A stretch of DNA of 64,000 bases from Olivibacter jilunii (GTDB lineage Bacteria > Bacteroidota > Bacteroidia > Sphingobacteriales > Sphingobacteriaceae). The stretch is from contig NZ_LR027848.1 of the NCBI RefSeq assembly GCF_900607235.1, positions 733,241-797,240 of the forward strand, written 5' to 3'. The notes under the pieces are model-generated. The model made no database searches and was not told the DNA's origin. It saw only the letters and a list, made by a program, of their open reading frames with translations. Every line of letters starts with the position of its first letter. Position 1 is the stretch's first letter. Of this stretch, positions 2,274 through 40,534 are shown piece after piece. The position numbers and the translations under genes were made by a program.

Positions 2274-2289
2274 TACAATTAAGTTGCCA
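2274..2289 (-). promoter_or_regulatory. Sigma-54-like -24/-12 promoter for permease at <1-2237
   Basis: On the minus strand the sequence TGGCAACTTAATTGTA places GG and GT exactly 10 bp apart, as in the sigma-54 consensus TGGCAC-N5-TTGC, with C to T at the last core position. The predicted RNA start is about 2264, giving a leader of about 27 nt. The same arrangement recurs at 9360, 26295 and 40429. The assignment is inferred from motif and spacing. Confidence 0.6.
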
Positions 2290-2340
2290 CATTAAGAAAG
2301 CTATTAAATAACCTCCAAAGACAGGTTTTAAAAAAAGTGA

Positions 2341-2378
2341 TGTACGGAAATGAACACTTATTTGTTCATTTCCGTACA
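2341..2378. promoter_or_regulatory. Paired palindromic activator sites
   Basis: Two 16-bp sites, TGTACGGAAATGAACA (2341-2356) and TGTTCATTTCCGTACA (2363-2378), are separated by 6 bp (22 bp centre to centre, two helical turns). The pair is itself an inverted repeat. It lies 51 bp upstream of the -24 element, a usual place for a sigma-54 enhancer-binding protein. Near-identical pairs occur at 9428, 18010, 26361 and 40497. Confidence 0.75.
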
Positions 2379-2466
2379 GGAGCCTATTGAACTTCTAAAA
2401 AGATTGCTTTTTTTATTGGTAAAAATATTTTTAATAATATATATATGCTTTTAAATAATATTTTTA

Positions 2467-2474
2467 TATCTTTG
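2467..2474 (+). promoter_or_regulatory. Probable -7 element for the 2503-4313 cassette
   Basis: TATCTTTG fits the Bacteroidota -7 consensus TAnnTTTG and ends 28 bp before the first ATG. The upstream 60 bp is extremely A/T rich. No clear -33 TTG lies at the expected distance, so strength is uncertain. Confidence 0.45.
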
Positions 2475-2502
2475 AGTCATTATTAAACACCCTAAACTTA
2501 TC

Positions 2503-2850
2503 ATGAAAAGAACAATTGAACTGAACCTGCCGGAGGACTTTGTTGTCGTTAGTGAGCTATTTAATATTTCCGTAGAGAAAACGCTCGAGACACTCTCACA
2601 GCGTATTACACTTTACGAATTTTTGGATAAGGACAATAAAGTCAAACAGTCAGAGGCCATAAAAATTCTGCAACGGTTTTTAAGGTTTCAAGGTATTAGT
2701 AGAGAAAAGATGAATGATGATTTCGCTCATAAGTTTCATCCTTACTTAGAGAATATAAGCAAATTGATAAAAATAGATGCTGGGAGAAAATCGCGGGAAT
2801 ATCAATCAATAGTTAATTGCTGTTATGATGAATTAAACCATATCGCATAA
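2503..2850 (+). CDS. Hypothetical protein, first of three related small proteins
   Basis: A 115-residue soluble protein I do not recognise. Its first ~37 residues (pattern IxLxL-x2-DF ... RITL) align without gaps with the two following genes: a short beta strand, then an amphipathic helix starting near DF/EF. No signal peptide or membrane helix is visible. It opens a four-gene forward block ending at 4313; the next ATG is 1 bp after its stop, implying co-transcription. The A/T-rich, lysine-rich coding differs from the flanking permeases and suggests acquired DNA. Function unknown. Confidence 0.8.
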   Translation: MKRTIELNLPEDFVVVSELFNISVEKTLETLSQRITLYEFLDKDNKVKQSEAIKILQRFLRFQGISREKMNDDFAHKFHPYLENISKLIKIDAGRKSREYQSIVNCCYDELNHIA

Positions 2851-2851
2851 T

Positions 2852-3253
2852 ATGAAGAAAGTAATAAAGATTAAGCTATTAAAAGATTTTGAACTGTTGT
2901 TTAAAATGTTAGATATCGAGCAAGAGCAGTTCTTTCAGTATTATTTGGATCGGATTTCTTTGCCTCGATTGATGAGTGTTCATCCTGAAGACCCCGAAGG
3001 TTTGCTGACGGATTTCTTTCTCAAGAATACACCGGTTGAGGACACAAAAGAAACACAAGAATATATCGAAAAGAAGGCAAAGGGAAAATATCATCACGCA
3101 ATGATGACTATTGTGGGAACAGAATTGGAACAGCCGGAATGCGAAGAACAGTTAAGGGTTGAGGTGAAAAAATGGCGTGATGAATATGTTATGTTGAGAA
3201 AAAAATTAAAGGAAAAAGGGAGACCAATTAAAATCATCAATTATGGAAATTAA
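2852..3253 (+). CDS. Hypothetical protein, second of three related small proteins
   Basis: A 133-residue soluble, charged protein of unknown function. The N-terminus (IKIKLLKDFELLFKML...DRISL) matches the first and third cassette proteins position for position. A further stretch, EGLLTDFFLKNT near residues 49-60, matches EGLATKFMLYQT in the third protein. The C-terminal half is basic (KKWRDEYVMLRKKLKEKGR). Its last 11 bp overlap the start of the next gene, so translation is probably coupled. Confidence 0.8.
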   Translation: MKKVIKIKLLKDFELLFKMLDIEQEQFFQYYLDRISLPRLMSVHPEDPEGLLTDFFLKNTPVEDTKETQEYIEKKAKGKYHHAMMTIVGTELEQPECEEQLRVEVKKWRDEYVMLRKKLKEKGRPIKIINYGN

Positions 3254-3641: not shown

Positions 3642-3653
3642 TCTTTTACCATA

Positions 3654-4313: not shown

Positions 4314-4323
4314 TGAATAAACC

Positions 4324-6696
4324 TTATTCGCTTCGCAAGGAATCAACCGGATTCGCTATTGCAGCCTTAATCGATTCATAGCTTATGGTTAATAATGCAA
4401 TCACTAAAGCAGCAATGGAGCCTATTACAAATACCACCCAACTTAAATTGATGTGATAAGCAAAATCATTTAACCAGCTATGGATCGCATACCAAGACAG
4501 CGGAACAGCGATAAGAATTGCTATAAAGATAAGGCGCATAAAGCGGATAGATAATAAACGAACTACACTGAGAACTGATGCGCCCAGAACCTTTCGTACC
4601 CCAATCTCTTTAAACCGCTGTTCGGCCATATAGGCAGATAAACCATAAAGACCCAAGCAAGAAATAAAGGTAGCAAGGATGGCAAAAAGATTAAACAAAC
4701 TTCCCAGCTGCTGTTCCCCTCGATACAAGTTTGCTAAGTCTTGATCGAGAAAGCTGTAAGAAAAAGGAAATCCGGGATTTAGACGGGTGTTAATCTTTTC
4801 TAATGCCTTGATTGTCGCTTCTGTTTTACCGGGTTGCGTACGCACTGCAACTACACCTCCCCATCGATTCGGTTCCAGAATAATCGGTTCAATGGCCTGT
4901 TGAATAGGTTTAAAATTAAAATCTTTCACCACGCCGATAACAGTTCCCCGTTTATCCCACATTGCTAATGGTTTACCAACCGCTGTCGCAGCAGTTAGCC
5001 CCATCATTTTGGCCAGCTTTTCATTGATAACATAATTGCTTGAGTCGCCCCTAAAATCTTTAGAAAATCCTCGACCGGAAATGATCTTCATTTGAAAAAC
5101 TTCAAAAAAACGTTCGCTTACGCTTAAGCTTGGAATAACTACTTGCGCATTTGGGTCTTTGCCTTCCCATTGTACGTTGATTGTACCGCTTGTTAAGTTA
5201 GTTGGCAAATCATTTGTAATAGTAAAATTGGCCGTTAAGGGATTTTGTTCTAGTTCACTTTTATAAGCCGTTTGCCTATTCCAGATATCACCCTTCATGG
5301 GCACATATAACAAATTTGACTTCTCATAACCCAAATTCATATTTTTTATGTAATTCAGTTGCCGATATACAACGGCGGTTCCTATTAATAATACAATAGA
5401 CACGACAAATTGTAAGACAACCAGTGTATTTCGAAAGAGTAGATCGCCCTTTCCGCCAAGCTTCATCTGCCCTTTAAGTACTTTTATCGGTTGAAAACCG
5501 GATAAAAACAAAGCAGGGTAACTCCCGGCTATAAATCCTGTTATCAATGCAATGCCAATTAATATAAAAACGAGCTTGCCATCAAAAAGACGGATCGCCA
5601 GTTCTTTGCCAGCCAGGTAATTAAAAGCAGGCAAGAGAAGCCAAACAAGTGTTATAGCAATAAAAAGTGATAGGCAGGAAATTAAAACCGATTCGCCCAG
5701 AAACTGTCCGGCCAACTGAGATCGGGCCGCGCCAACAACCTTCCGCAAACCCACCTCTTTTGCCCTTCGGCCGGAGCGAGCCGTAGCTAAATTCATAAAA
5801 TTAATGCAGGCAACTAATAGGATAAAAACAGCCACCAGCGAGAGGATATTTACATATTGAATATTACCATTGTCAGATAACTCTACCTGTAAGTGAGAGT
5901 GGAGATGTATATCCCGTAATGGTTGGAGATGAAAAGTTATTTTTTGATTAGTTTCATGTGATTTATAAAGCGCATTCATTTGGCTTTCCAAAGCCAATAG
6001 ATTGGCTTCATTAGCCTCGAAATCCCTGTTTAACTGAATGTAAGAATAGAAATTAAAGTTCTTCCAGGTATTCTGGATCAGATCGTTATGCGTTTTCGCG
6101 ATTGCCGCCATAGGCATGAGATAATCAAATTGCAGGTGCGAGTTAGTAGGGACATTCGCTAAGACGGCCGTTATGGTAAGAAGTTTTTCGTTATTTATTT
6201 TAAGCGTTTTTCCAATTGGATCTGTATTCCCAAAATACTTTTTGGCAAAGTTTTCCGTGATTAGTAAGGCGTCCGGACGCTTAAGCGCTGTGGCTTGATT
6301 GCCGGAAATCAACGGAAAGGAGAAGACGTCAAAAAACGTTGAATCGACAAAGAAGCCCCTTTTTTCTTCAAACTTTTTATCCTGATATTCAAAAGCATTA
6401 GTAGAGGGATGGCTTAATCGAACAGCATTTTTAATGGCCGGTATTTTAGCTTTAAGTTCAGCAGGCATACCGGCAGGGTTTACAGCCGCTTTGAAGTCGT
6501 CTGACGCTACGGCTGTAATACGATAAATTTCATTTGTGTGCTCATGAAAGCGATCGTAACTTTTCTCATTCCGAATCCAAAGAAGGATCAGAATGCTCGA
6601 TGCCATACCAACTGCAAGGCCTGCTATATTCAGCGAAGAAAAAGATTTGTGCCGAATTAGATTCCTGAGGGCGATTTTGAAATAATTCTTTATCAT
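4324..6696 (-). CDS. Orphan MacB/FtsX-type permease
   Basis: A 790-residue inner-membrane protein. I place the start at the ATG at 6696 (MIKNYFKIALRNL); a TTG further upstream (6708) would add residues not seen in the paralogues. Layout: helix ~18-40, periplasmic domain ~41-280, three helices ~285-405, helix ~425-445, second periplasmic domain, three C-terminal helices. FtsX signatures are AKEVGLRKVVGA and [12 protein letters not shown]; the tail is ANPVDSLRSE. The spacing to the upstream permease (154 bp) holds 7-bp repeats but no promoter like those at 9360 or 2274, so I infer read-through from the 6851-9262 gene. No ATPase partner is nearby. Confidence 0.93.
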   Translation of the reverse strand: MIKNYFKIALRNLIRHKSFSSLNIAGLAVGMASSILILLWIRNEKSYDRFHEHTNEIYRITAVASDDFKAAVNPAGMPAELKAKIPAIKNAVRLSHPSTNAFEYQDKKFEEKRGFFVDSTFFDVFSFPLISGNQATALKRPDALLITENFAKKYFGNTDPIGKTLKINNEKLLTITAVLANVPTNSHLQFDYLMPMAAIAKTHNDLIQNTWKNFNFYSYIQLNRDFEANEANLLALESQMNALYKSHETNQKITFHLQPLRDIHLHSHLQVELSDNGNIQYVNILSLVAVFILLVACINFMNLATARSGRRAKEVGLRKVVGAARSQLAGQFLGESVLISCLSLFIAITLVWLLLPAFNYLAGKELAIRLFDGKLVFILIGIALITGFIAGSYPALFLSGFQPIKVLKGQMKLGGKGDLLFRNTLVVLQFVVSIVLLIGTAVVYRQLNYIKNMNLGYEKSNLLYVPMKGDIWNRQTAYKSELEQNPLTANFTITNDLPTNLTSGTINVQWEGKDPNAQVVIPSLSVSERFFEVFQMKIISGRGFSKDFRGDSSNYVINEKLAKMMGLTAATAVGKPLAMWDKRGTVIGVVKDFNFKPIQQAIEPIILEPNRWGGVVAVRTQPGKTEATIKALEKINTRLNPGFPFSYSFLDQDLANLYRGEQQLGSLFNLFAILATFISCLGLYGLSAYMAEQRFKEIGVRKVLGASVLSVVRLLSIRFMRLIFIAILIAVPLSWYAIHSWLNDFAYHINLSWVVFVIGSIAALVIALLTISYESIKAAIANPVDSLRSE

Positions 6697-6702
6697 TATA
6701 AG

Positions 6703-6858
6703 TATCAAGTATCTTTTGAGTTGTGAGTTGTAAGTCCTACGCTCTACGTATTAACTTGCTTCAAAAAAAGGTTTTTGATGTGGCTTATTATTAACTTCTT
6801 TGTTTAGTTTATCAAGACACTTATGACCTAAAACTTACTACTTCTAACTTCTATTCAC
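6703..6858. repeat. Heptamer-repeat tracts between two permeases
   Basis: Starting next to the permease start there are tandem 7-mers AAGTATC (twice) and GAGTTGT (twice). At the other side, 6830-6855, runs ACTTACT-ACTTCTA-ACTTCTA, ending inside the next permease's stop region. The 7-bp period links them to tracts elsewhere in the window. Confidence 0.6.
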
Positions 6859-9262
6859 TTCGCAATGAATCGACAGGGTTAGCAATTGCAGCTTTAATAG
6901 CTTGATAGCTTACCGTTAATAAAGCGATTGTAACTGCGCCTAGTCCGGCGAAGGCAAACATCCACCATTGCACGGTTATTTTAAACGCAAAGTTCTCTAA
7001 CCATTTATTCATGGTCCACCAGGCAATTGGTGTGGCAATCATTAACGCGATCAATACCAGTTTGATAAAGTCTTTAGAGAGCAGTCCGGTTATTCCGCCA
7101 ACGGTAGCTCCCAGCACTTTGCGAATGCCAATTTCCTTGGTGCGTTGAAAGGCGGTAAAGGCGGCTAAGCCATATAGTCCTAGACAGCTGATCAACAAAG
7201 TTATAGCGGTAGCCACATTCACCAGTCGGGATGTACTATGCTCCTGCCGGTATAGCGATTTTATCGTGTCATCATAGAATTGATAAGAAAATGGCGCTGT
7301 TGGGTAAACTTGTTTCCATTCTTGCTCAATAAGGGCAATCGCTTTTTTCCAGGAGGAAACCTTAGGTGAAGATAGTTTGATATTAAAAGTTGTTAAACCA
7401 GGCTTTTGCGCTGTAAAACCGAGTAAATCAATTGTGCTCTTCAAGTTAAACTGATGAAAATCTTTAATAACTCCAACAATAGTCCGCGGCATGTTACCTT
7501 GATATAAAGTTTGCCCAATGGCCTCTTCGGCACGAGAGAAGCCAAAGGCTTTGAGCGCGGTTTCATTTAGAAGCAATTCGCGCACGGTATCCGTTAACTG
7601 GGCGTTCCTTCCCGCAAGTAACGGTATTTGATAAAGATCAAGGTAATTATTGTCTATATTTTTAAACATCACTTGCTTTTGTATGGTGCCGTTTTTTCCG
7701 CGATAATCCATTAACCAAGCCGTCATTCGGTCAATCATCGGTAAGTCGCCCAAAGAAACCGCTGCGATCTCGGGATGTTGAGCCAGTCGTTGCTTTAAAA
7801 CAAATTGAGAGCCTTGAAAAAGCGAGTCTTGCTGTAGCTTATAGGGGATTTCGACCGTTAAGATGGCTTCATGTTCAAAACCTAAATCTTTGTCCAAAGT
7901 ATATTTCAGTTGTTGTCCGATAATAATGGCGCAAATCACAAATACCTGCGCAATTACAAACTGGAACACAATCAGTCCCTTACGGAGATTCAACTGATAG
8001 CCCCTAATCGATTGCTTTGTTTCACCTTTTAATACGCGGACGGTTTGTACACGGGTAGCGAGCCAGCTAGGATAGAGTCCTGCAAGAACCGTAATAAAAC
8101 TGATCAATGCAATGGAAAAGCCAATCATACCGGGATAATTGGTGAAATTGTTCATACCCTCGGGGATGTATTCCGCAAAAACGCGCAGGGATAAAAATGT
8201 TAGAAATAGTGACAAGGCGACTGCTAGTAGACAGACAACAAAAGTTTCCAATAAGTAAGAACGGATAATGATTCCTGACGTACTTCCTAACGTTTTCCGA
8301 ACACTTATTTCTTTTGCCCGTTGAGGTATTTGTGCGGTAGTCAGGTTAATATAATTGATACAGGCTAGGGCAAGTAGAAAGAACGCAATGCCTATCAAGC
8401 CGAATAATACGGATTTATTGGCGGTACGGGTGTCAGATTGGGTGGCAAAATGTTTGTCCTTCAGCTGAAGCAGCTTAAAATGTGATTTAAAGTTGCGTTG
8501 TTTAAAAACCTCGCTGTTGATCTTTTCGTTTAGTGCATTCAATTGATCAAGAACAGTCTTAGTGCTAACCCCTTTCTTAAGCTTAACAAACAATAGCTCA
8601 TTGGAAGATAAGCTGCTCCAATCGGTACTGGTAAGACTTTCTTGGTCTATAGGAAAAAACTCTTGTGCAGGAAAACTATTGAGATAGCCTAAATCTGCGA
8701 GAACACCGGACACCGTTTTTTGTATGGTATCATTATAGGTGATGGTTTGTCCAATAATTTCTGAAAGGCGTTTACCGGGGAAATAGTATTGTGCTCGCGA
8801 AGCAGTTAATATAACTTGCTCTGGTGTTTTCAGAGCCTGCTGGGCATTTCCCGCTAGCCATTGATAGCCTATCATTTTAAAATAGCCTGGTAATGTGGCT
8901 ATCCGTTCAGAGAGGTTTTCTACCAACGGACTTTTGGCAGTTTGGGCCGTTTCGTAATGCTGATAATAAACAGGAGAAACCTCCTCCAGTCCGGAAATTT
9001 CCCGGAGCATTGCTGGCAATACACCTTTAGGAACAACAGCCATCTCACGATCCCGTCCATCTGGTGTTTTGAAGCTCGATGTCAGTTGAAAAATGCGTTC
9101 ACGATCGGGTTCAAATTTATCATAACTAAATTCAAAGCTAACCATTCGAAAGATGATCCAGGACGCGCTAATGCCTATGGCCAATCCCAAAATATTTAAA
9201 CCTGTAAATAGTCGATTCCGCCATAAATAGCGAAAGGTCGCTTTAAGGTGATGATTAATCAT
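6851..9262 (-). CDS. Orphan MacB/FtsX-type permease
   Basis: An 803-residue inner-membrane protein (MINHHLKATFRYLWRNRLF) with the family's duplicated layout: N-terminal helix, large periplasmic domain, three helices, a mid-protein helix (FQFVIAQVFVICAIII), second periplasmic domain, three helices. Signatures are AKEISVRKTLGS and [12 protein letters not shown]; the tail is ANPVDSLRSE. The start is the family-typical ATG at 9262. It is probably first in a two-permease transcript with 4324-6696, driven by the sigma-54-like promoter at 9360-9375. Substrate and ATPase are unknown. Confidence 0.93.
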   Translation of the reverse strand: MINHHLKATFRYLWRNRLFTGLNILGLAIGISASWIIFRMVSFEFSYDKFEPDRERIFQLTSSFKTPDGRDREMAVVPKGVLPAMLREISGLEEVSPVYYQHYETAQTAKSPLVENLSERIATLPGYFKMIGYQWLAGNAQQALKTPEQVILTASRAQYYFPGKRLSEIIGQTITYNDTIQKTVSGVLADLGYLNSFPAQEFFPIDQESLTSTDWSSLSSNELLFVKLKKGVSTKTVLDQLNALNEKINSEVFKQRNFKSHFKLLQLKDKHFATQSDTRTANKSVLFGLIGIAFFLLALACINYINLTTAQIPQRAKEISVRKTLGSTSGIIIRSYLLETFVVCLLAVALSLFLTFLSLRVFAEYIPEGMNNFTNYPGMIGFSIALISFITVLAGLYPSWLATRVQTVRVLKGETKQSIRGYQLNLRKGLIVFQFVIAQVFVICAIIIGQQLKYTLDKDLGFEHEAILTVEIPYKLQQDSLFQGSQFVLKQRLAQHPEIAAVSLGDLPMIDRMTAWLMDYRGKNGTIQKQVMFKNIDNNYLDLYQIPLLAGRNAQLTDTVRELLLNETALKAFGFSRAEEAIGQTLYQGNMPRTIVGVIKDFHQFNLKSTIDLLGFTAQKPGLTTFNIKLSSPKVSSWKKAIALIEQEWKQVYPTAPFSYQFYDDTIKSLYRQEHSTSRLVNVATAITLLISCLGLYGLAAFTAFQRTKEIGIRKVLGATVGGITGLLSKDFIKLVLIALMIATPIAWWTMNKWLENFAFKITVQWWMFAFAGLGAVTIALLTVSYQAIKAAIANPVDSLRSE

Positions 9263-9359
9263 TTGGTTACTGTATAAGATTTCAATATGTATTGTGTCGA
9301 TTACGTTGTTGCTGGGTACTATTTTTCAATGACGAACGTACCTTAACCAACTGTTTGTG

Positions 9360-9375
9360 CACAATTAGGCGGCCA
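9360..9375 (-). promoter_or_regulatory. Sigma-54-like promoter for the 9262/6696 permease pair
   Basis: The minus strand reads TGGCCGCCTAATTGTG: TGGC at -24 and TTGT at -12 with correct GG-N10-G spacing. The 3' half TAATTGT is the same as at 2274-2289. Predicted leader is about 88 nt. Confidence 0.6.
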
Positions 9376-9427: not shown

Positions 9428-9464
9428 TGTACGGAAATGAACAAAGAGTGTTCGTTTCCGTACA
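9428..9464. promoter_or_regulatory. Paired palindromic activator sites
   Basis: TGTACGGAAATGAACA (9428-9443) and TGTTCGTTTCCGTACA (9449-9464) with a 5-bp spacer, 21 bp centre to centre. The first site is identical to the one at 2341. The pair lies 52 bp upstream of the -24 element. The stretch from 9465 to 9669 holds no gene or motif I can support. Confidence 0.75.
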
Positions 9465-9731: not shown

Positions 9732-9737
9732 ATATAA

Positions 9738-12978: not shown

Positions 12979-15402
12979 TCATTCACTTCTCAACGAATCC
13001 ACCGGATTTGCTTTGGCTGCTCGTAATGACTGAACACCTACTGTCAAAATTGCTATTAGTAATGCGGCAACTCCCGCCAAGGGAAAAATCCAAACGGGCA
13101 TATCCATACGATAAACAAAATCGTCTAACCACAGATTCATAGTCCACCAAGCAATAGGGGCCGCAATTAAAAAGGCAATGATAACAGGTTTCACGAATTC
13201 GCGGATCACTTTAGCTGTGATATGGGCCACCGAAGCACCCAATACTTTCCGTATACCGATTTCTTTTACTTTTTGATGAATAATAATGAGTGCTAGACCA
13301 AATAAGCCCATGCACGAAAGCAAAATGGCAATTCCCGCCGAGACCGAAAAAAGCGTAGCTAGGCGTTTCTCTTTTTTATACCAACGGTCGATATTCTCAT
13401 CAATATAGCTTCCCTTAAACTCTGCGTTCGGTTCCAAGCTGGCATACGTTTTCTTGAGCATATCCATGGTAGCAACCGGGTTTTGCGTATTGACTTTTAC
13501 GAAAATATAATCTAGGGAGGGGTCGCCTTCAATAGCGATTGTGAGGGGCTCCGTTGGATTGTGCATAGAATACAGGTGAAAATCTGGAATGATGCCTATG
13601 ATATGCCAGCCATTGCGGCCCGCTGAATCGGTATTAATATTGCGCCCCAGTAATTGCCCGCTACCGAGTTGCTTGGCCATACTTTCCGTGATGATAACAG
13701 CTGCTGATGTGTCTGCTGAAAAAGCAACAGAGAAATCCCTTCCTTCCAATGGTTTAATGGACAGTGTTGTCAAAAAATCGTAATCAGCTGAAATGTAGGT
13801 TGTTTTTATATTCTTTCCTTCATGGCTGAAGCCGACCTGCGATTTAGAAGTACTTCCATCTTTGCCAACACCCAAATTAACGTCTGCACCCGTTACACTT
13901 AATACCGACGGGTTAGAAGCGAGACGCGTACGTAATTTGGCACTGATATCCCGACCGTGTGTAACGTCTTTAACGGGTATGCTAACAATGGATGCGGTAT
14001 TGTAACCAAGACTAGCCGTGCGAAGATGCTGAAATTGCAAATAGCATATAGCCGTCGCACAGATTAGTATGATAGCGGTGATAAACTGGAGCGTAATCAG
14101 AATGTTCCTGCCGATTCCTGATTTAATAATGCTGAATTTGCCTTTAAAGATGTCTGTAGTTTTAAGCTTGTTCAAGATGAAAAAGGGATATCCGGATGAT
14201 AAAAAGGAAATGAGTATCCATATGGCACATACACTTATTGCCATTTGCGGATTGTAAAGAACGGCATGATCGAGTTTAAAGAAATTATAAAGCGTCAGTA
14301 TTTTAATAAGCGCAGCTACACCTAACAAACCAATAAATAATGAGAGTCCGATCTGTATAAAATTCTCCCAAAACAATTGTCCCCATACCTGCCGGGCGGC
14401 GGCTCCTAAACACTTTCTTACACCTAGTTCTTTGCTGCGAGTGAATGATAGGCTGATTTGAATATTGATAAAGTTGAAGCAGGCAATAAATAAAATAACG
14501 ATACTCACCAACAGGAGAATATAAAGATAGGTTTTGCTGACGGTATCGCCCGAACCTATTTCCGTATTAAAGTGAAGCTTGTTTAAGGATAACAAACGCA
14601 TACCTAAATAATCGCCATTGGCATCGGCTTTGAATCCGTCTCTTTTTAAAGACTCCCCGTCTGGATGCAAATACTTTTGCACGAACAAATGCAGTTGCTT
14701 TTCCGCTTGTGCTTGACTTACGTGTGGCGCGAGGCGCACGTATACATTGTGATGCTGCTCATACCATTCTTCCTTGGTTCTGGCCCAGTTGGGATCTAGC
14801 TCTGTGCGTGCCAAGATGGGGAGCTTAAAGGTTGAATTCTGCGGAGCGTCTTCCATTACAGCGGATACGATAAGACGCTTCCAATCACCACCTATTTTAA
14901 TCTCAACTGGTTTTCCTATGGGGTCTTGTTGGCCAAATAAACTAGTTGCGGTCGTTTGATTCAACACGATAGCATCTATGTTATCCAACGGTGAGCGAGT
15001 TTGACCGTGTATAATCCGGAAGGAAAAGATGTCGAAAAAGTCAGGGTCAACTAGATTTATTCCCTGCTCGAGTGATTTGGCTCCATTACGAATTTCTCTA
15101 CCACTATTTTTAATTCGAGTTACTTTGTCGATCCCAATATTCTCCTTCTTCAGGTAGGTAGCTACCGGATAACCCATGGTAGCGCCAAGTTCCGTTCCCT
15201 TTACTAAATTATGGAATTCATAGAGCTTAAATACGCGATCTTTATACCGATGAAACTTATCAAAAGAAAATTCGTGATAAACAGCAGCCAATAATAGCAT
15301 GCTACAGATAAAGGCGATGGCCATTCCCAATATATTAATAAAGGTGTGCGCCCTATGCTTTAGCATATTGCGCCAGGCAATTTTTAGATAGTTTCTTATC
15401 AT
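12979..15402 (-). CDS. Orphan MacB/FtsX-type permease
   Basis: An 807-residue inner-membrane protein with the family's two-half layout. I choose the ATG at 15402 (MIRNYLKIAWRNMLKHRAH) because all paralogues start there; the open frame runs 32 codons further to 15498 without similarity. Signatures are SKELGVRKCLGA (after TM3) and [12 protein letters not shown]; the tail is ANPVDSLRSE. It lies 105 bp downstream of the next permease with no own sigma-54-like site, so it is inferred to be second in that transcript. No ATPase partner. Confidence 0.93.
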   Translation of the reverse strand: MIRNYLKIAWRNMLKHRAHTFINILGMAIAFICSMLLLAAVYHEFSFDKFHRYKDRVFKLYEFHNLVKGTELGATMGYPVATYLKKENIGIDKVTRIKNSGREIRNGAKSLEQGINLVDPDFFDIFSFRIIHGQTRSPLDNIDAIVLNQTTATSLFGQQDPIGKPVEIKIGGDWKRLIVSAVMEDAPQNSTFKLPILARTELDPNWARTKEEWYEQHHNVYVRLAPHVSQAQAEKQLHLFVQKYLHPDGESLKRDGFKADANGDYLGMRLLSLNKLHFNTEIGSGDTVSKTYLYILLLVSIVILFIACFNFINIQISLSFTRSKELGVRKCLGAAARQVWGQLFWENFIQIGLSLFIGLLGVAALIKILTLYNFFKLDHAVLYNPQMAISVCAIWILISFLSSGYPFFILNKLKTTDIFKGKFSIIKSGIGRNILITLQFITAIILICATAICYLQFQHLRTASLGYNTASIVSIPVKDVTHGRDISAKLRTRLASNPSVLSVTGADVNLGVGKDGSTSKSQVGFSHEGKNIKTTYISADYDFLTTLSIKPLEGRDFSVAFSADTSAAVIITESMAKQLGSGQLLGRNINTDSAGRNGWHIIGIIPDFHLYSMHNPTEPLTIAIEGDPSLDYIFVKVNTQNPVATMDMLKKTYASLEPNAEFKGSYIDENIDRWYKKEKRLATLFSVSAGIAILLSCMGLFGLALIIIHQKVKEIGIRKVLGASVAHITAKVIREFVKPVIIAFLIAAPIAWWTMNLWLDDFVYRMDMPVWIFPLAGVAALLIAILTVGVQSLRAAKANPVDSLRSE

Positions 15403-15507
15403 TTCGTTTTCCGTTACTCGTTGTTTGATCTGACGCGTCTTGGCAGATTTCAGCATCTTGATTGACAGGTCTACGAACAGCTGACAATCAAGAACCAATA
15501 ACTAAAT

Positions 15508-17889
15508 CTATTCACTTCTCAACGCATCAACCGGTTTATTAAGCGCTGTTTTAATGGTTTGCAAAGCAATTATGAATAATGTAATTCCTCCTAAAACCAA
15601 CAGGGGTATAATAAACGTACTTGCTTCCAGTTCTGTTCTTATATAATAATTTGTTAACCATTTTTTCATTAACCAATAGCTAGTTGGTACCGCTATGCAT
15701 GCCGCTAATAGAAACAGTGGATATACATCGTGGATGAACAGATAAATAATTTGTCTAACAGAGGCTCCTAAAACCTTTCGTATGCCTATTTCCTTCACCC
15801 TTTTTTGTAGATTGTGTGATACAAGCCCTACAATGCCTAATAGAACGATGATCATTGCAAGTATAGTCGCTACTGTTCCTGCATGTTTCAACTGCATTTC
15901 CGTCCTATACTGTTGTGCTAGTTTAGCATCCATAAACGTGTAATCAAACGGGGCGGTTGGTAATATTTGCTTCCAAGCAGTGGTTAAATGATTTAATGAA
16001 ACGCCGACATTTCCTGGTTTTAAGCGAATACTGAAATAGCGGTAAACATTACTGTTTTTTATGTTAAACCATAGCATTGGTCCGATGGGAAAGTGCATAG
16101 AGGTCCCATAAAAATTTTTTGTTACACCCGAGATGATAGCAGAACTTGCATCCGTAAAATAAATGGCTTGATTAACGGCATCGACAGGACTGGTATAACC
16201 AAGTGCCTTTGATAAAGCTTCATTGATTACTACACGGTCCGTAGGTTCGGACGCTTCGTTAGGGCTATAAAAATTGCCCGCAAGTAGCGGTATTTTATAG
16301 GTTTCGGCAAAATGCCGATCGGAAAAAACTAAACCGGTACTGATGGGATCGGTGCCTGTCGCGTTTTTCAGAACGTTTGTATTGCCCGAAGACATCGCCC
16401 CGGGGATATCATAAGAGATGGAAATATTTTCAACCTCGGGGAGTTTAGCGAGTTCTTGCCTTAATACTTCGGTATGTCGTAAGCCTTCTGCAGTCCAATC
16501 GCGTGGCACCTGTACCGTTAATAGATATTCTTTATCATAACCTAGGTTTTTGCTAAAGAACAAACTAACCTGTTGGGCAATAATAGCCGATGATGTCAGT
16601 GCAATCAGCGCAATAGCAAATTGAACACTGATTAACCCCCGAAGAAGAAAGGACCCATCTTTGCTTTGTGCCAGCTTACCGCGTGCTGACTGGACGGTAG
16701 GAAGCGAGGATAAACGAAGCGCCGGATAGGCTCCGGCAAATAGTCCTATTATTAAACAACTAAGGATAGCGAATATCCAAAACGACCCGGGTAAGTTGAA
16801 AAGTGAGGGGATGGATTTTCCCAATACGTTGGATATTACCTTCGACAAGAAAGGATAAAGGCATATTGATAGTAACATAGATATAACCACAGCCAATAAG
16901 GCTTCAGCAATAAATTGGGCCTGTAATTGTTTTTTGGTACCCCCAACCACTTTTCTGATGCCAATTTCTTTCAATCGGTTAGCGGAGGTATTGATGCTAA
17001 TATTAACAAAATTAATGACAGCCAAGAGCAAAATAGCAAAAGCAACGATCGAGACGGTGTACAGCAAATGCTTAATCGATCCATCACCTTTTTCCAGATG
17101 ATAGGTCTTTAAAGGCGCCAGCGAGGCTTTATAATCTTTTACGATCGCTTTAGGAGCATGTGCTTGAATGAGATCTCGTATAGGTTTCTCCAAAGAACTT
17201 GGAGAGACATTTGGTTGTAGCTCTAAATAGGAAGCTATATAAAGGCTTTGCCAATCGTCAATAGGTCGGCCAAAAAAGCTGGTTGATTGTATTGGTAGTA
17301 TTAAATCTGTCGCGGGGCCCGTCAAGTTTAAAACAGCATTTTCTCCTTTGTTTTCCAACACGCCACCAATCGTAAAAAGCTGTTCTTGATTGTTAAAGTT
17401 CCGGACAGTAAGTTGTTTACCCAGCACCTCCTCATTCCCAAACAGACACTTAGCAAAGGGTGCTGATAAAATGACCTGATTTGGTGTTTTTAATGCATGG
17501 TTTACATTGCCGCTAAGTAACTTGAAACCGAACATTTCAAATAAACTTGAATCAGCTACAATAGCGTTACTTTGAACAGGTTGGCCGTCATAGGCAATAA
17601 TAGCCGTGATGCCATCAAAGCGGAAATAGTTCTTTACTAAATGGGGATAATTCTCCTTAAGAGCCCGCGGGAGCATACCAATGGCGGAATATTCGTTAAG
17701 ATTACTTTTTAAGAGATATTGCTGATCAATATGTTTAATGTCTTGATTGACCCGAAGTTCTTGCCATACAAATGCACCGATAAGCAATGCAAAGGACAAG
17801 CCGCACGCTAAGCCCAGTATATTGATCGCTGTATTGAATTTGTGTTTTCGTAAGTTTCTCCACGCAATTTTGATATAATTTTTAAACAT
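15508..17889 (-). CDS. Orphan MacB/FtsX-type permease
   Basis: A 793-residue inner-membrane protein ([19 protein letters not shown]) with two MacB-PCD/FtsX-like halves. Signatures are [12 protein letters not shown] and [12 protein letters not shown]. The tail NKPVDALRSE is one of the more diverged in the window. It is probably first in a two-gene transcript with 12979-15402. The promoter at 17932-17947 and palindrome pair at 18010-18047 lie upstream. Substrate and energy source are unknown. Confidence 0.93.
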   Translation of the reverse strand: MFKNYIKIAWRNLRKHKFNTAINILGLACGLSFALLIGAFVWQELRVNQDIKHIDQQYLLKSNLNEYSAIGMLPRALKENYPHLVKNYFRFDGITAIIAYDGQPVQSNAIVADSSLFEMFGFKLLSGNVNHALKTPNQVILSAPFAKCLFGNEEVLGKQLTVRNFNNQEQLFTIGGVLENKGENAVLNLTGPATDLILPIQSTSFFGRPIDDWQSLYIASYLELQPNVSPSSLEKPIRDLIQAHAPKAIVKDYKASLAPLKTYHLEKGDGSIKHLLYTVSIVAFAILLLAVINFVNISINTSANRLKEIGIRKVVGGTKKQLQAQFIAEALLAVVISMLLSICLYPFLSKVISNVLGKSIPSLFNLPGSFWIFAILSCLIIGLFAGAYPALRLSSLPTVQSARGKLAQSKDGSFLLRGLISVQFAIALIALTSSAIIAQQVSLFFSKNLGYDKEYLLTVQVPRDWTAEGLRHTEVLRQELAKLPEVENISISYDIPGAMSSGNTNVLKNATGTDPISTGLVFSDRHFAETYKIPLLAGNFYSPNEASEPTDRVVINEALSKALGYTSPVDAVNQAIYFTDASSAIISGVTKNFYGTSMHFPIGPMLWFNIKNSNVYRYFSIRLKPGNVGVSLNHLTTAWKQILPTAPFDYTFMDAKLAQQYRTEMQLKHAGTVATILAMIIVLLGIVGLVSHNLQKRVKEIGIRKVLGASVRQIIYLFIHDVYPLFLLAACIAVPTSYWLMKKWLTNYYIRTELEASTFIIPLLVLGGITLFIIALQTIKTALNKPVDALRSE

Positions 17890-17931: not shown

Positions 17932-17947
17932 CTTAAAAACTTTGCCA
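17932..17947 (-). promoter_or_regulatory. Weak sigma-54-like promoter
   Basis: The minus strand reads TGGCAAAGTTTTTAAG. The -24 TGGCA is intact; the -12 half is poor (TTA instead of TTG). The gap to the palindromes is 62 bp, one helical turn more than the 50-52 bp seen at the other four, which would keep the same face of the helix. Weakest of the five. Confidence 0.4.
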
Positions 17948-18009
17948 AATCGAATGGGCATTATAAGGTCTTGATTTTTAGTGTATTTTGCTAGTGTAAG
18001 TGATGTGGC

Positions 18010-18047
18010 TGTTCGATATCGGACAGCAGAGTGTGCGATACCGTACA
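18010..18047. promoter_or_regulatory. Paired palindromic activator sites
   Basis: TGTTCGATATCGGACA (18010-18025) and TGTGCGATACCGTACA (18032-18047), 6-bp spacer, 22 bp centre to centre. Both keep the outer TGTNCG and CGNACA arms while the central bases differ from the sites at 2341, showing what is conserved. Confidence 0.72.
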
Positions 18048-26173: not shown

Positions 26174-26174
26174 G

Positions 26175-26294: not shown

Positions 26295-26310
26295 CTCAAC
26301 TTTATTGCCA
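26295..26310 (-). promoter_or_regulatory. Sigma-54-like promoter for permease 23759-26173
   Basis: The minus strand reads TGGCAATAAAGTTGAG: TGGCA at -24 and TTGA at -12 with GG-N10-G spacing. Confidence 0.6.
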
Positions 26311-26360: not shown

Positions 26361-26397
26361 TGTTCGAATATGGACAACCGGTGTTCGTATTCGAACA
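26361..26397. promoter_or_regulatory. Paired palindromic activator sites
   Basis: TGTTCGAATATGGACA (26361-26376) and TGTTCGTATTCGAACA (26382-26397), 5-bp spacer, 21 bp centre to centre, 50 bp upstream of the -24 element. The second site is a nearly perfect palindrome. Confidence 0.75.
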
Positions 26398-29866: not shown

Positions 29867-29870
29867 TACC

Positions 29871-33664: not shown

Positions 33665-33697
33665 CCTTATATCCTAAACAATCAATAAATCGCTATT

Positions 33698-35191: not shown

Positions 35192-35216
35192 GGCATGACA
35201 ACACTTCCTGTCCGTT

Positions 35217-35317
35217 TTTAGTTATTCGTTATCCGTTCTTAGTCTGGTATGACAAATAACCAATAACGAGTAACTAATAACCAATAACCAATAACGAGTA
35301 ACCAATAACCCATTACT
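35217..35317. repeat. AATAACC-family inverted heptamer tract
   Basis: The clearest tract in the window. The right arm holds nine 7-mers in exact register, 35255-35317: AATAACC, AATAACG, AGTAACT, AATAACC, AATAACC, AATAACG, AGTAACC, AATAACC, CATTACT, running into the permease stop codon. The left arm (35217-35243) carries the complementary type TTAGTTA-TTCGTTA-TCCGTTC-TTAGTCT, so the two can pair. Confidence 0.8.
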
Positions 35318-37715
35318 CACTTCTCAACGATTTTATTGGATTAACCGTAGCAGCCCTTACAGACCGGAAACCGATGGTGACAATAGCAATAACAAAGGTA
35401 ATGGCGACAGCAAGCAGGAAAACATTAAGTCCTATTTCAATTTTGTAAGAAAAATCCTGTAAATAGGTTTTCATGCCCCACCAGGCGACCGGCGCAGCAA
35501 TCATAAATGCAATGACCAGTAAACGGACGAATTCCCTCCCAAAAATCCATAGAATATCCGGAATGGTAGCGCCCAAAACTTTGCGGACACCAATTTCCTT
35601 AGTTTTATGAAAGGCCATAAACGATATGAGGCCGTATAAACCAAGGCAGCCGATTAAAATAGCTACCAATGCAAAAGCTTGAATCAGTTTTAAGAGGGTG
35701 TTATCGGTTTCATAGAATTGTGCAACTGCTTCATCCATAAATTGGTGAGAGTATACATAATCAGGATAGGTTTCACTCCATATTTTTTCAAAAGAGGCTA
35801 ATGTGGAAGTGAGGTGTTGACTGCTCAATTTAATGGAACAATTAACATATTCTTTGTTGTTAGATGCAATGCAAATAGCGTCCTTTTCGTTACGAAAGGA
35901 ATAATTATAGAAATCTTTCACCACACCAACAATAGGACCACTATAAGCTGTGCCATTTATGGTGATATTTTTTCCAATTACTTCTTCTGCTGACGTTAGA
36001 TTAAGCTTTTTGACAAAAGTTTCATTCACCAAAAATTCGTTAATGGTGTCAGACCGATGGATGTTCCTGCCGGCTGCCAAACGCATATTGAATGTAGACA
36101 AGTATTGGTCGTCTGCATATTTCAAATTGATGCTCCATCTTTCTTCTTCTGTCCGTGTATCATAGCGTACGCCGGTTGTTCTGTTCGATCGGGAAGCAGG
36201 AGGTTGAAAATTTAAGGAAACAGCTTGAACACCGTTGACGTTTTCAAGGCGGTTCTTGAGCGTCAACTTTTTATCGGCGTGATCACGATCCGCTTCCGGA
36301 ATAGGGAGGTTGACAATAGCGCTTTTATCAAAACCAAGATCGGTATTATTGACATAATTTATCTGCCTCGCGATGATTAAAGTGCCAATGATAAGCATCT
36401 GTGAAATAGCAAATTGCCCTACTACCAATGATCTCCGTAAAGCAAAACCACCGACCTCGCGTTGAGTTATTTTGCTCCTTAGGGCTTGAATGGGTTTAAA
36501 ACCGGCCAATACCAAGCCTGGATAAAACCCGGAGAGAAAAATAACAAAAGAAACAACACTTATTAAAAATACGGGCATTTGCCAAGCACTGAATAGATTT
36601 AAACGTATTTCGGATTGGAAGAGATCATTGATACTTGGCAAAAGCACCGATGCAAGCCCACATGCGATTAACGTAGAGATCAAAGTAATAAGTGCTGTTT
36701 CTGAAATAAACTGCCAAAAAAGTTGTTTCCGTTGGCTGCCCAGTACTTTTCGGATACCGATTTCTTTCGCACGATTGATCGCTTGTGCCGTAGCTAGGTT
36801 TGTGAAGTTAATACAGGCAGTAGAAAGCAATAATAGGCCGATAAATAACAACGCGTATAAATAATTTTTATTGACGGCGCCATTATAAACAGGGTTAAAA
36901 TGAATGTCTCTTAGTGGTTGTAATTTGAAATTCCAAACCTTTGCATCCCGGCCTGGGTAATGTTTTTCTGAAGTTTGCCGCAGCGCTTTTTCAACCACAT
37001 CCGCGCTTATACCTTCTTTCAACAAGGTGTAACATTGCGTGCCGCTGTATACACCATTCCAGGCATCGTCGCGAGCTAACTCGGGATCTCGATCCTTTAA
37101 GTTCGCGAAGGAGAGGAATATTTCACTTTGAAGATCTGTGTTGTTTGGTAAATCTTGTAGGACAGCTTTAACTGTGAAATCAGTGTTATTATTGACTTTG
37201 ATCACTTGTCCTAAAGGGTTGCTATCTCCAAAATATTTTTTTGCGATTTTTTCAGTGATGATTGCTGTGTTCGGATCTGTAAGGACTTCTGCCGACTCAC
37301 CTTTTAAAATAGGAAAAGTAAAGATGGAGAAGTAGGCGGATTCTGTATAGGCGATTGAGCTTTCCTCATTAAATTTCTTCTTGTCCGGTGTTCCCGGTAG
37401 CGTGACTAAGACATCCCGAAAATTAATCGACCTTGCCGTATATTCGTCGAGATTAAAGTCCTCGCGAAAGGCCTTACCTAAGGGGCTAGGAACGCCAGCG
37501 GAATGATCAACAATATCATCTTGCCATTCTGTAACCAAACGATAGATTCGTTCTTTATCTTCGTGGAAATTGTCAAAACTAAAATGGTAATTGACCAACG
37601 CGAAAATCAGCAAGGCGCAGGTGATTCCTAAGGTGAGCCCGAATACATTAATGATGGTAAAGGATGTATTCCTTCTAATATTTCGCCAAGCGATTTTTAT
37701 GTAGTTTTTTAACAT
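35313..37715 (-). CDS. Orphan MacB/FtsX-type permease
   Basis: An 800-residue inner-membrane protein ([19 protein letters not shown]), two-half FtsX layout. Signatures are [12 protein letters not shown] and [12 protein letters not shown]; the tail [10 protein letters not shown] departs from the usual ANPVDSL. Only 77 bp separate it from the upstream permease, and that gap is heptamer repeat without promoter, so both are inferred to share the promoter at 40429. No ATPase partner. Confidence 0.93.
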
Positions 37716-37718
37716 AAT

Positions 37719-37792
37719 CGTTATTTGTTATCCGTTATTAGTTCCTAGTAAGAAATGGCAAATAACCAAGCACGAATGACCAGTAACTAAAT
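37719..37792. repeat. AATAACC-family inverted heptamer tract between permeases
   Basis: Left arm CGTTATT-TGTTATC-CGTTATT-AGTTCCT, right arm CAAATAA-CCAAGCA-CGAATGA-CCAGTAA-CTAAATT. The arms are imperfectly complementary and fill nearly all of the gap between two co-directional permeases. Confidence 0.65.
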
Positions 37793-40237
37793 TTATTCAC
37801 TTCTCAACGATTTCGTTGGATTGGCCAAAGCTGCTTTAATGGCTTGGAAACTAACGGTCAGTATAGCGATGACAATAGCAGCGGACCCTGCAATAGCAAA
37901 AACCCACCATTTAATTTCAATCCGATAGGCAAAATCCTGTAACCATTTGTTCATCGCCCACCAGGCTAAAGGTGAGGCGATGACAATGGCGACAAACACA
38001 AGCCTTAAAAAGTCTTTAGTCAGTAATTGTACGATGCCATTTACGCTGGCGCCAAGAACTTTTCGAATTCCTATTTCTTTCGTGCGCTGTTCTGTGGTAA
38101 AAGCCGCTAAGCCGAATAACCCTAAACAGGCAATGAAGATGGCTAAGGCAGCAAAACTGGTGAATATATTGCCTGTACGCTTTACATCCATATACATATT
38201 GGCATAACCTTCATCTAAAAAGGTATAACGCATGGCTTGATCAGGTGAAAATTTCTTCCATACAGCACCAATTGCTTGCACTGCTGTGCTCATATCTTTA
38301 CCGTTTACCTTGACAGCAAGCATGGTGGGGCTATTACTTAATGCCATACATAAACCCTCGACTTCATCTTTAAGTGATTCAAAATTAAAGTCTTCTACTA
38401 CGCCGATAACTGTAAATACACGGCCATTAGTTATACGGGCACCTACAGGATTTTTAAGCCCTAGCTCTTTCGCCAACTTTTGATTAATAATAACGGACTG
38501 GGAGTCGGTAGCCATGTCTTTGGAAAAGTTTCTGCCCGAAAGTAACTTCATGCCTAAAGTGGAAAGATAGTTTTCATCAATTTCCCAAAATTGGCCCCCA
38601 GTTCCAGCCTCTTCTGTGATTTTTCCTTCTTTCCAAAAAGTGTTGCCATTTCTTTTTACCCCTTCCAATCGTACTGGTAGAAAATCGCTCACCGAAGCAC
38701 TTTTCACTTGAGGCAGTTTTTGAAGTTCTTCTTTTAATACGTTGATTTGATCGCCAAGGGTACTGGTGCCCTGTAAAACCATCACCTGGTCTTTATCGAA
38801 ACCTATTTTCTTGTCCAGTATGAAATTCATTTGATTGTTGATAATCAACGTGCCGATGATTAACGTGATGGAGGTGGCAAACTGGAAAACAACCAAACCG
38901 TTTCTAAGAACGGGGTTTCTGGTCCCCTGACTTAAGTCCCCTTTTAATACTGCGATAGGACGAAAACCTGATAAATAGAAGGAAGGATAAATGCCCGCAA
39001 GGAGACCAACGAAAAGGGCTGAACAGAGAACAACGGGAATTAATTGCCAGCTGGACCACGGGAAGCCAAGTTCCTTTCCAGAGAGGGTATTGAATAAGGG
39101 TAACAATAGCCAGGCAAGTAATAGGCCGATGAGGAAAGATAATATACTGTAAAGAGTAGATTCCGCTAAAAATTGGGCAATTAAACCGCTTCTATAAGAA
39201 CCGACCACTTTGCGAAGACCTACTTCTTTTGCACGATTGGCCGATTTTGCCGTAGATAGATTGACAAAATTAATACAGGCAATTAACAGGATAAATGCAG
39301 CAATACCACCAAATAACCATACAAATTTAATGTCACCCCTTTGCATTTGGGGGTAATCGTGTATATCGGCAGAATATAGGTGGATATTTCTAACAGGCTG
39401 TAAGCTTAAGCGAAGGTTTTTTTCCATTTCATTTGCGCGGACGTTCCCTGCCTGCTGCATAGTTGGAATGACATATTTGGTAAGGATTTCTTTTGTTAAT
39501 ATCTTTTCAAATTGTGCAACATCAGTCCCTTTCCGTAGTTTAATATAAGTCGGGTAATTCGTTGCTCCCCAATTGTCCTGCTCGCCAGGATAAAACACTA
39601 CGCCGTTTAATGTAAGTAAAAAGCTGAAGGGTTTTAAATGTGAAGTAGAGGGGAGGTCTTCAATAACTCCCTTAATGGTATAAGGTTTGGATTTATCGTT
39701 GTTCAAGTAAACAATCTTTCCAACCGGATTCTTACCCGGGAAATATTTATCCGCTTTACTTTTCGTCATGACCAAGGTATACGGATGTTTCAAGGCTTTT
39801 GATCGATCTCCAAAAGCCATGGGTAGCTGAAGCATATCTAGTAACTCCTGATCCATGTAAGTAAATCCTTCTTCATAAACGCTGGTCGGATTATCCTCAA
39901 TGCTTACCTGATTACTCCCTGCTCCGTAAAATAAAGAATTGGGAAGGATCCGTCCTACCGTTTCGACTTGCGGAAAATCAGCCTTTATCGCTTTACTTAA
40001 GGGTGCCTGAAAAGATACTCCTTTCTTTATTTCGCCATTATCATTGAATCGCGCAATAATGCGATAAATCCGCTCTCCATCGGGATAACTTTTATCATAA
40101 CTTATTTCATGAATAATATATAATGTAATAAGTATACAGGCTGCAATGCTACAAGCAAAGCCACCAATTTTGATGGCAGAATATAGGCGGTGTTTCAGTA
40201 AGTTCCGCCAGGCGATTTTTAGGTAGTTTTGAAACAT
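37793..40237 (-). CDS. Orphan MacB/FtsX-type permease
   Basis: An 814-residue inner-membrane protein (MFQNYLKIAWRNLLKHRLY), the longest complete paralogue here. Signatures are AKEVGLRKVVGS and [12 protein letters not shown]; the tail is ANPTKSLRSE. Two large periplasmic domains are bounded by eight predicted helices. It heads a two-permease unit; its leader of about 180 nt contains dispersed element copy 3. Promoter and palindromes lie at 40429-40534. Confidence 0.93.
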   Translation of the reverse strand: MFQNYLKIAWRNLLKHRLYSAIKIGGFACSIAACILITLYIIHEISYDKSYPDGERIYRIIARFNDNGEIKKGVSFQAPLSKAIKADFPQVETVGRILPNSLFYGAGSNQVSIEDNPTSVYEEGFTYMDQELLDMLQLPMAFGDRSKALKHPYTLVMTKSKADKYFPGKNPVGKIVYLNNDKSKPYTIKGVIEDLPSTSHLKPFSFLLTLNGVVFYPGEQDNWGATNYPTYIKLRKGTDVAQFEKILTKEILTKYVIPTMQQAGNVRANEMEKNLRLSLQPVRNIHLYSADIHDYPQMQRGDIKFVWLFGGIAAFILLIACINFVNLSTAKSANRAKEVGLRKVVGSYRSGLIAQFLAESTLYSILSFLIGLLLAWLLLPLFNTLSGKELGFPWSSWQLIPVVLCSALFVGLLAGIYPSFYLSGFRPIAVLKGDLSQGTRNPVLRNGLVVFQFATSITLIIGTLIINNQMNFILDKKIGFDKDQVMVLQGTSTLGDQINVLKEELQKLPQVKSASVSDFLPVRLEGVKRNGNTFWKEGKITEEAGTGGQFWEIDENYLSTLGMKLLSGRNFSKDMATDSQSVIINQKLAKELGLKNPVGARITNGRVFTVIGVVEDFNFESLKDEVEGLCMALSNSPTMLAVKVNGKDMSTAVQAIGAVWKKFSPDQAMRYTFLDEGYANMYMDVKRTGNIFTSFAALAIFIACLGLFGLAAFTTEQRTKEIGIRKVLGASVNGIVQLLTKDFLRLVFVAIVIASPLAWWAMNKWLQDFAYRIEIKWWVFAIAGSAAIVIAILTVSFQAIKAALANPTKSLRSE

Positions 40238-40296
40238 ATTATTTATTTTTCAGAGGTGTTTCAGCTATTCGCTGAATCGCTCATGGTTTTATCATT

Positions 40297-40422
40297 GTAT
40301 CAAGTATTAAGCCTGCCTGCCGGTAGGCAGGTGTCAAGATATTCTAAAAGCGCCTTTACGATGTTGAGTCTTACTAGTCGGGCGATCTTGTGTCTTGATA
40401 CTTGCGTCTTATATCCTTTAGC
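40297..40422. repeat. Dispersed heptamer element with 20-bp palindrome, copy 3
   Basis: Left heptads TATCAAG-TATTAAG, the same 20-bp near-palindrome (40312-40331), then TGTCAAGATATTCTAAAAGC, and a right arm of CTTG heptads: GATCTTG-TGTCTTG-ATACTTG-CGTCTTA-TATCCTT. The left (CAAG) and right (CTTG) arms are inverted. Lies between promoter and permease ATG. Confidence 0.78.
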
Positions 40423-40428
40423 TAGTAG

Positions 40429-40444
40429 ACCAAGAATATCGCCA
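40429..40444 (-). promoter_or_regulatory. Sigma-54-like promoter for the 40237/37715 permease pair
   Basis: The minus strand reads TGGCGATATTCTTGGT: TGGC at -24 and TTG at -12 with GG-N10-G spacing. Confidence 0.58.
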
Positions 40445-40496
40445 AATGGAAAAGTGGGCTTTAAATGTGGCTGGAAAGGAATGTAAAGAGGAATAG

Positions 40497-40534
40497 TGTT
40501 CGATTCCGAACAGTTTACTGTCCAAAATCGAACA
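40497..40534. promoter_or_regulatory. Paired palindromic activator sites
   Basis: TGTTCGATTCCGAACA (40497-40512) and TGTCCAAAATCGAACA (40519-40534), 6-bp spacer, 22 bp centre to centre, 52 bp upstream of the -24 element. Confidence 0.72.

Follow-up and report, generated by a model that had tools for sequence, protein, structure and literature searches.

A predicted sigma-54 enhancer-promoter element connects the multiplied FtsX-type permeases of Olivibacter jilunii with one NtrC-type two-component locus and its adaptor, ATPase and TolC genes

What controls a permease family that has multiplied to tens of copies within one bacterial genome, and which other genes share that control? The question is raised by a 64-kb stretch of DNA from Olivibacter jilunii, hereafter the window (C1:733241-797240, in a genome of 6.70 Mb and 21 contigs), which carries a series of permease genes related to the ADOP family. 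Passages of a 2025 survey describe sigma-54 control as less explored in the phylum Bacteroidota and report sigma-54 promoters enriched before COG0577 FtsX-like permeases in Bacteroidia, presented as the first evidence for that family (PMC12316311). An initial annotation of the window had proposed that paired palindromes and -24/-12 elements upstream of these “orphan” permeases place the whole family under one NtrC-type activator encoded elsewhere. We consider it very probable, from sequence comparisons within the genome and across the phylum, that the five sites in the window are enhancer-promoter sites of a sigma-54 activator that we identify at C1:806840. A literature search, covering few subscription papers or preprints, found no paper naming this activator, its enhancer or its regulon.

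All five annotated palindrome pairs were located by direct sequence check, with start-to-start spacings of 21-22 bp, although the 16-bp palindrome is shared less strictly than had been described: the exact form, TGTNCGNNNNCGNACA, accounts for five of the ten window palindromes, and the other five carry one mismatch. The distances to the promoter elements agree with the annotation, in that four sites present TGGC-N7-TTG at 51, 52, 50 and 52 bp from the pair, while at the fifth (17932-18047) the gap is 62 bp, about one helical turn beyond the other four, and the -12 element reads TTA. All five sites lie upstream of minus-strand ADOP-like permease units and together, as annotated, they head every one of the eight window permeases whose upstream DNA is visible; the permeases behind them are 793-839 aa long, and their matches to ADOP (TIGR03434) score well under the curated cut-off. 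Five pairs (at most two mismatches in all, spacing 20-23 bp) and five exact palindromes in the window compare with no pairs and a mean of 0.015 exact palindromes in 200 sequences that a first-order Markov model generated with matching dinucleotide composition.

The genome encodes the sigma factor that such sites call for: rpoN is present (C9:24991-26427, 426 bits against a cut-off of 277), together with five strong and seven weak matches to the sigma-54 activator domain. One strong activator, C1:806840-808183, sits 9.6 kb past the window end, outside the window as had been anticipated, and combines a receiver (PF00072), a sigma-54 AAA+ domain (PF00158) and a Fis helix-turn-helix (PF02954). A histidine kinase gene follows directly (C1:808183-809502; HATPase PF02518 plus PAS), and the regulator is divergent from a predicted operon, here termed the head operon, for an HlyD-type adaptor, an ABC ATPase and three permeases. 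A TolC-type gene of the OEP family (C1:714566-715891; PF02321) is preceded by a further site at C1:715916-716021. Because the adaptor-ATPase-permease operon and the TolC gene share the site, the predicted regulon encodes all parts of a tripartite exporter. The permeases, called orphan in the annotation, are not truly so; the predicted regulon also holds adaptor, ATPase, TolC and a few other genes. For the one permease tested (37793..40237), the best solved matches found by phmmer are MacB chains. Within the stretches inspected, a second ATPase of the head-operon type adjoins the permease at C1:719306.

Across the whole genome there are 31 exact palindromes, as against two for a reversed control pattern; 20 stand before permease units, two at the adaptor-ATPase-permease operon, one before tolC and eight elsewhere. 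With 23 of the 31 before permease units, adaptor operon or tolC, the motif is not scattered. Six of the eight non-exporter palindromes are partnerless and were taken as background, four of them lying inside long reading frames (C1:5938, C2:350119, C2:1171018 and C5:245558), one near the end of such a frame (C2:54149) and one at C3:317125. A pair at C2:201552 was not counted because it lacks a good -24/-12 (21.8 bits with our site model). The ADOP-like permease genes number 33 in 26 units, where units are inferred from strand and gaps below 400 bp, split genes (C1:1297883/1299349, C4:265791/267079 and C6:246149/247100) are counted once each, and permeases of about 415 aa (C1:947194, C8:102022 and C2:837755) and a 91-aa fragment (C2:395900) are excluded. 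Twenty-four of these units, holding 31 of the 33 genes, carry a pair or end an operon that does: 22 through aligned sites, one (C1:1330822) through a site at C1:1333317 picked up solely by the site model, and one through the adaptor operon, which ends in three permeases.

Beyond the exporter genes, the site model places permease-type promoters before three serine hydrolases of the PF00144 (beta-lactamase) fold, hinting at a wider envelope response; one of these sites (C4:272273) belonged to the model's training set. Further model sites precede a ROK-family gene and a 226-aa protein without a Pfam match, the latter upstream of a PepSY gene. A model site at C7:311461 has no clear target; the idea that its 93-aa open reading frame is the relic of a lost permease was rejected, as the permease profile matched nothing there in six frames.

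We aligned 25 sites, 20 of them from a scan around exact palindromes and five weaker ones found only via permease upstream regions, which are therefore not independent; the -24 element was sought 46-59 bp downstream of the second dyad (further in one case). The dyads are spaced 20-23 bp apart, with 21 bp in 15 sites, and the -24 element, which reads TGGC in 21 sites, TGGA in two, TGGT in one and CGGC in one, starts 50-55 bp past the second dyad in 24 of the 25 and 62 bp past it in the remaining one. With the -24 element at its usual place, the dyads fall at about -78 to -115, where sigma-54 enhancers normally lie. This geometry bears on the alternative that the palindromes bind an unrelated dimeric regulator, either a repressor or a one-component factor, with TGGC incidental. 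A palindrome of this kind could serve dimers in general, and the ROK gene and the serine hydrolases do have sites before them, yet a -24 element held at 50-55 bp in all aligned sites except one, the co-occurrence of the site with one sigma-54-type regulator family in 46 of 46 site-bearing genomes of the phylum, and the position of a pair between regulator and adaptor operon in most relatives read make this alternative highly unlikely.

The same alignment speaks to a second alternative, in which the promoters are copied hitch-hikers, that is, ancestral upstream DNA of duplicated permease units that is no longer under selection. The permeases are indeed a multigene family, partly gathered in one cluster of about 85 kb, and two broken copies (C1:1299349 and C4:265791) keep their sites. 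However, the palindromes and the -24 element are far better conserved between sites than the roughly 50 bp that separate them, tolC and the adaptor operon have the same site even though their first genes are not permeases, and sites persist across families, so that we regard hitch-hiking as extremely unlikely. Among the broken permease genes themselves, C1:1297883-1300263 and C4:265791-268176 keep a full site and C6:246149-248566 a decayed one.

Two further features of the head-operon region were seen. Its promoter reads TGGC-N6-TTG, one base shorter than most permease promoters, and this spacing is kept in eight head-operon loci (L018:9484-9592, which is C1:806484-806592, and L116, L117, L121, L123, L126, L127 and L132). 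A conserved TATACCA-type stretch lies between the palindrome pair and the regulator gene in L018, L116, L117, L118, L119 and L127; it may belong to the promoter that serves the regulator-kinase operon.

The occurrence of regulator, site and permeases was compared in 41 relatives. Orthologs of the regulator at C1:806840, at 49-88% identity, are set apart in these genomes from other sigma-54 activators, which are mostly below 40% identical with some at 41-46%. The site occurs in 20 of the 41, ADOP-type permeases (E 1e-45) occur in the identical 20, and the regulator is found in 18 of them, with a shortened match of 46% identity in a further one (G015). Outside the home family, which leaves 16 genomes, the regulator is present only in G025 and G038, and the site only in the same two. 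The divergent regulator/adaptor layout with a pair between is kept in most loci read. In the upstream regions of 17 loci the pair is visible by eye in most; no pair was seen in G025b and a single clear dyad in G038b, and in G007 the contig ends there.

These comparisons also address the possibility that one of the four other strong activators (C2:279675, C8:179231, C1:1429416 or C6:330998) is the actual regulator, or acts at these sites as well. The genome does have five such activators, and one relative, G003, retains sites without the proposed one. Nonetheless, regulators of this general type are present in 40 of the 41 relatives, as against 20 with the site, and many relatives in which the site was not found have activators of about 35-39% identity. 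In the region of the recognition helix the four depart from the RTALYRRL that 13 of 20 ortholog proteins share, and the 18-20 kb read around each of them contains no ADOP-like permease. Control by any of the four is accordingly very unlikely.

The association with the regulator at C1:806840 extends across the phylum. Among 198 genomes with a completeness of 90% or more, a regulator match (E 1e-95; 39-100% identity, hence broader than strict orthologs) is present in 58 and a site (E 1e-4) in 46. Every one of the 46 site-bearing genomes has the regulator or a relative of it, and none of the 140 regulator-less genomes has a site match (Fisher 1e-33, own genome excluded and kinship uncorrected). 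Of 96 tallied sites outside the O. jilunii genome, 63, spread over 28 genomes, are separated from the regulator gene by more than 3 kb. A set of the 80 closest loci kept from named genomes, some of them cut by contig ends, includes Olivibacter sitiensis, Parapedobacter, Mucilaginibacter, Pedobacter and Sphingobacterium, as well as Niastella, Terrimonas, Ferruginibacter, Pontibacter and Rufibacter. A kinase-like gene is present in 78 of these loci, a permease in 68, and an adaptor and an ATPase in 59 each, and the site model matches 74 of the 80 (E 0.1).

The genes behind the sites, counted from the listed, higher-scoring matches, are mostly those for permease, adaptor, ATPase, TolC or the regulator. 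This holds for all of 30 loci (two of them from the O. jilunii genome): directly downstream there is a permease in 20, an adaptor in eight (in one case of 22% identity), and the regulator and ATPase-TolC in one each. Of 39 further site regions from G002 (13), G003 (15), G007 (6) and G011 (5), 32 have a permease downstream (one matched over only 35 residues) and six an ATPase or TolC; the sole exception, L187, has no such gene there. In distant genomes, 16 of 19 sites, drawn from 18 genomes and each more than 3 kb from the regulator gene, have a permease, adaptor, ATPase, TolC or regulator gene within 2.7 kb, though this gene is not the first in three cases and four of the adaptor matches reach only 19-22% identity; L303, L304 and L311 show no exporter-type gene within that distance.

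Several observations weigh against control of these sites by the identified activator, or against its full extent. The -12 element is weak, with N7-TTG in 15 of the 25 aligned sites, N6-TTG in three and other arrangements in seven, and because the site model was trained mostly on permease-adjacent sites, its matches in the own genome are partly circular. The annotation assigned the whole family to one activator, but the site covers 24 units and is lacking at two: C6:247100, where the gene is broken and preceded by TGGC and a half-decayed pair, and C3:391024-393414, the only intact unit of the ADOP-like type without a recognizable site. Among the relatives, the congeneric G003 shows 28 matches to the site and 18 or more to the permeases, and its assembly yielded no regulator, even on a re-search at a loose cut-off; beside a truncated permease (L297:10942-12597, C115) the regulator-kinase-adaptor-ATPase segment is gone, the rest of the assembly not having been searched for adaptor or ATPase, and the loss may be a natural deletion or a misassembly. 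Since no genome turned up that has these permeases but lacks the site, regulator and permeases may be no more than a single co-inherited module. The phylum searches scored the best few candidates per genome with strict site filters and can miss weak sites or matches; 12 of the 58 regulator genomes have no model site match (in six of these a looser pair occurs within the 2.6 kb that precede the gene), and three site-bearing genomes, G102, G193 and G197, have no regulator match better than 39-41% identity. These distant matches in three phylum genomes, and the few candidates scored, slightly lower our confidence.

How might the system work? We propose that the regulator of the two-component pair C1:806840-809502, once phosphorylated, would occupy both 16-bp dyads side by side, oligomerise, and contact the sigma-54 polymerase at -24/-12. 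Activation would then drive 24 scattered permease units (31 genes), including the adaptor-ATPase head operon, together with TolC, and the products likely form a MacAB-TolC-like exporter in which one shared ATPase serves many interchangeable permeases, as the gene content suggests. The loop of the AAA+ domain sets the regulator apart: GA(F/Y)TDA replaces GAFTGA in 20 of 20 ortholog proteins and in 78 of the 80 named loci, the own-genome regulator having GAFTDA, whereas the other four activators have GSFTGA or GSFTSA. In NorR, the substitution G266D, which yields GAFTDA, gives a constitutive activator. Published passages count GAFTDA and GAYTDA among the loops of Desulfovibrio vulgaris activators judged able to activate (PMC4641369) and leave the effect of the GAFTDA variant in VfmH undecided (PMC10714721).

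In the kinase, two membrane helices separated by hardly any loop are combined with a cytoplasmic PAS domain; hydropathy profiles of 20 ortholog proteins show two peaks in 16 and one in four, all within the first 54 residues. No periplasmic sensor domain is evident in it, and the signal is probably perceived within the membrane, via a partner protein, or by the PAS domain in the cytoplasm. This architecture allows a bolder reading, in which the diversified permeases, tens in number, act as sensors as well as effectors: the periplasmic domains of each would detect a particular envelope-damaging compound, and the permease would signal in Bce-like fashion to the one shared kinase, which would switch on the whole array via sigma-54. 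We consider this sensor array rather unlikely; if real, it would be a broad-spectrum envelope alarm with a single output, widespread in the phylum.

Table 1. Features of the predicted regulon (ranges with two dots are window positions; C-prefixed ranges are contig positions)
Feature	Position	Strand	Remarks
Unit 1 paired palindromes (enhancer)	2341..2378	-	1 mismatch per palindrome
Unit 1 -24/-12, TGGC-N7-TTG	2276..2289	-	51 bp from enhancer
Unit 1 ADOP-like permease	1..2237	-	C1:733081-735477, off left window edge
Unit 1 second permease, after C1:733081-735477	C1:730496-732931		outside window
Unit 2 paired palindromes	9428..9464	-	
Unit 2 TGGC-N7-TTG	9362..9375	-	52 bp from enhancer
Unit 2 first gene, ADOP-like permease	6851..9262	-	803 aa
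Unit 2 second gene, ADOP-like permease	4324..6708	-	794 aa
Unit 3 paired palindromes	18010..18047	-	both exact
Unit 3 TGGC-N7-TTA	17934..17947	-	62 bp from enhancer
Unit 3 first gene, ADOP-like permease	15508..17889	-	793 aa
Unit 3 second gene, ADOP-like permease	12979..15498	-	839 aa
Unit 4 paired palindromes	26361..26397	-	
Unit 4 TGGC-N7-TTG	26297..26310	-	50 bp from enhancer
Unit 4 ADOP-like permease	23759..26173	-	804 aa
Unit 5 paired palindromes	40497..40534	-	
Unit 5 TGGC-N7-TTG	40431..40444	-	52 bp from enhancer
Unit 5 first gene, ADOP-like permease	37793..40237	-	814 aa
Unit 5 second gene, ADOP-like permease	35313..37715	-	800 aa
Head operon third permease	62856..64000	-	C1:796096-798540; rest of operon past right edge
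Head operon ABC ATPase	C1:803996-804676		PF00005
Head operon HlyD-type adaptor	C1:805186-806436		PF13437
Head-operon palindrome pair	C1:806556-806592		both exact; between regulator and adaptor operon
PF00144 hydrolase, permease-type promoter	C4:271111-272361		
PF00144 hydrolase, permease-type promoter	C4:347544-348632		
PF00144 hydrolase, permease-type promoter	C2:639617-640675		

Other genes of the window include one for a 589-aa HEPN-domain protein between two permease units (10441-12210), one for an AraC-type helix-turn-helix fused to TPR repeats (19647-21710) and a SusC/SusD-type pair adjoining permease unit 4 (26603-31634).

Several of the Bacteroidota genomes examined here hold tens of copies of duplicated FtsX-type permeases. 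If nearly all permeases of one genome are tied, as predicted, to one two-component switch, one enhancer and one adaptor-ATPase-TolC set, their function becomes testable by a single gene deletion. The prediction supplies a regulon with sites defined to the base pair, in a phylum whose sigma-54 control is described as less explored in the survey passages cited above (PMC12316311), and a regulator family recognizable by its GA(F/Y)TDA loop and divergent locus.

Compared with known systems, the locus has the make-up of NtrC/NtrB-type regulons, with a receiver-AAA+-Fis regulator, a kinase gene next to it, tandem dyads upstream of -24/-12, and rpoN, and the solved full-length chain nearest to the regulator is of the NtrC family (4l4u). 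It differs from them in the GA(F/Y)TDA loop, in targets that are tens of paralogous transporter genes, and in a -12 element without the usual GC in most sites. With MacAB-TolC and DarBCD it shares an adaptor, an ABC ATPase, an FtsX/MacB-type permease and a TolC-family protein, and the DarB model of the darobactin exporter matches the permeases below its cut-off; here, by contrast, the ATPase is encoded apart from the permeases, and, should it be shared, a single head operon would supply some 30 of them. Bce-type modules are defined by an OmpR-type response regulator, in place of which the present system has an NtrC-type regulator that would act with sigma-54. Passages on BceRS-BceAB describe a likewise two-helix kinase without an extracytoplasmic domain beside an FtsX-type exporter (PMC10314905, PMC3023708), BceS being controlled by its transporter (PMC10314905). 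In the present system, however, the kinase has a PAS domain, its nearest solved relative is not BceS but, for the catalytic half, ZraS, and the permeases number tens rather than one. The ADOP family (TIGR03434) resembles these permeases in full-length match (many at about 5-803 of 803 positions, some over the second part only) and in high copy number, two Dyadobacter genomes having 28 and 33 ADOP genes annotated as of unknown function, according to passages of the report (PMC11573002). The best match here, at 328 bits, nevertheless falls under the curated cut-off of 622.3, no match in any of the 41 relatives exceeds it, and the permeases described here are distinguished from ADOP in being tied to ATPase, adaptor and TolC by a common promoter. 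Finally, while the passages at hand of the survey that linked sigma-54 promoters to FtsX-like permeases (PMC12316311) name no activator, enhancer, locus or regulon, candidates for all four are identified here.

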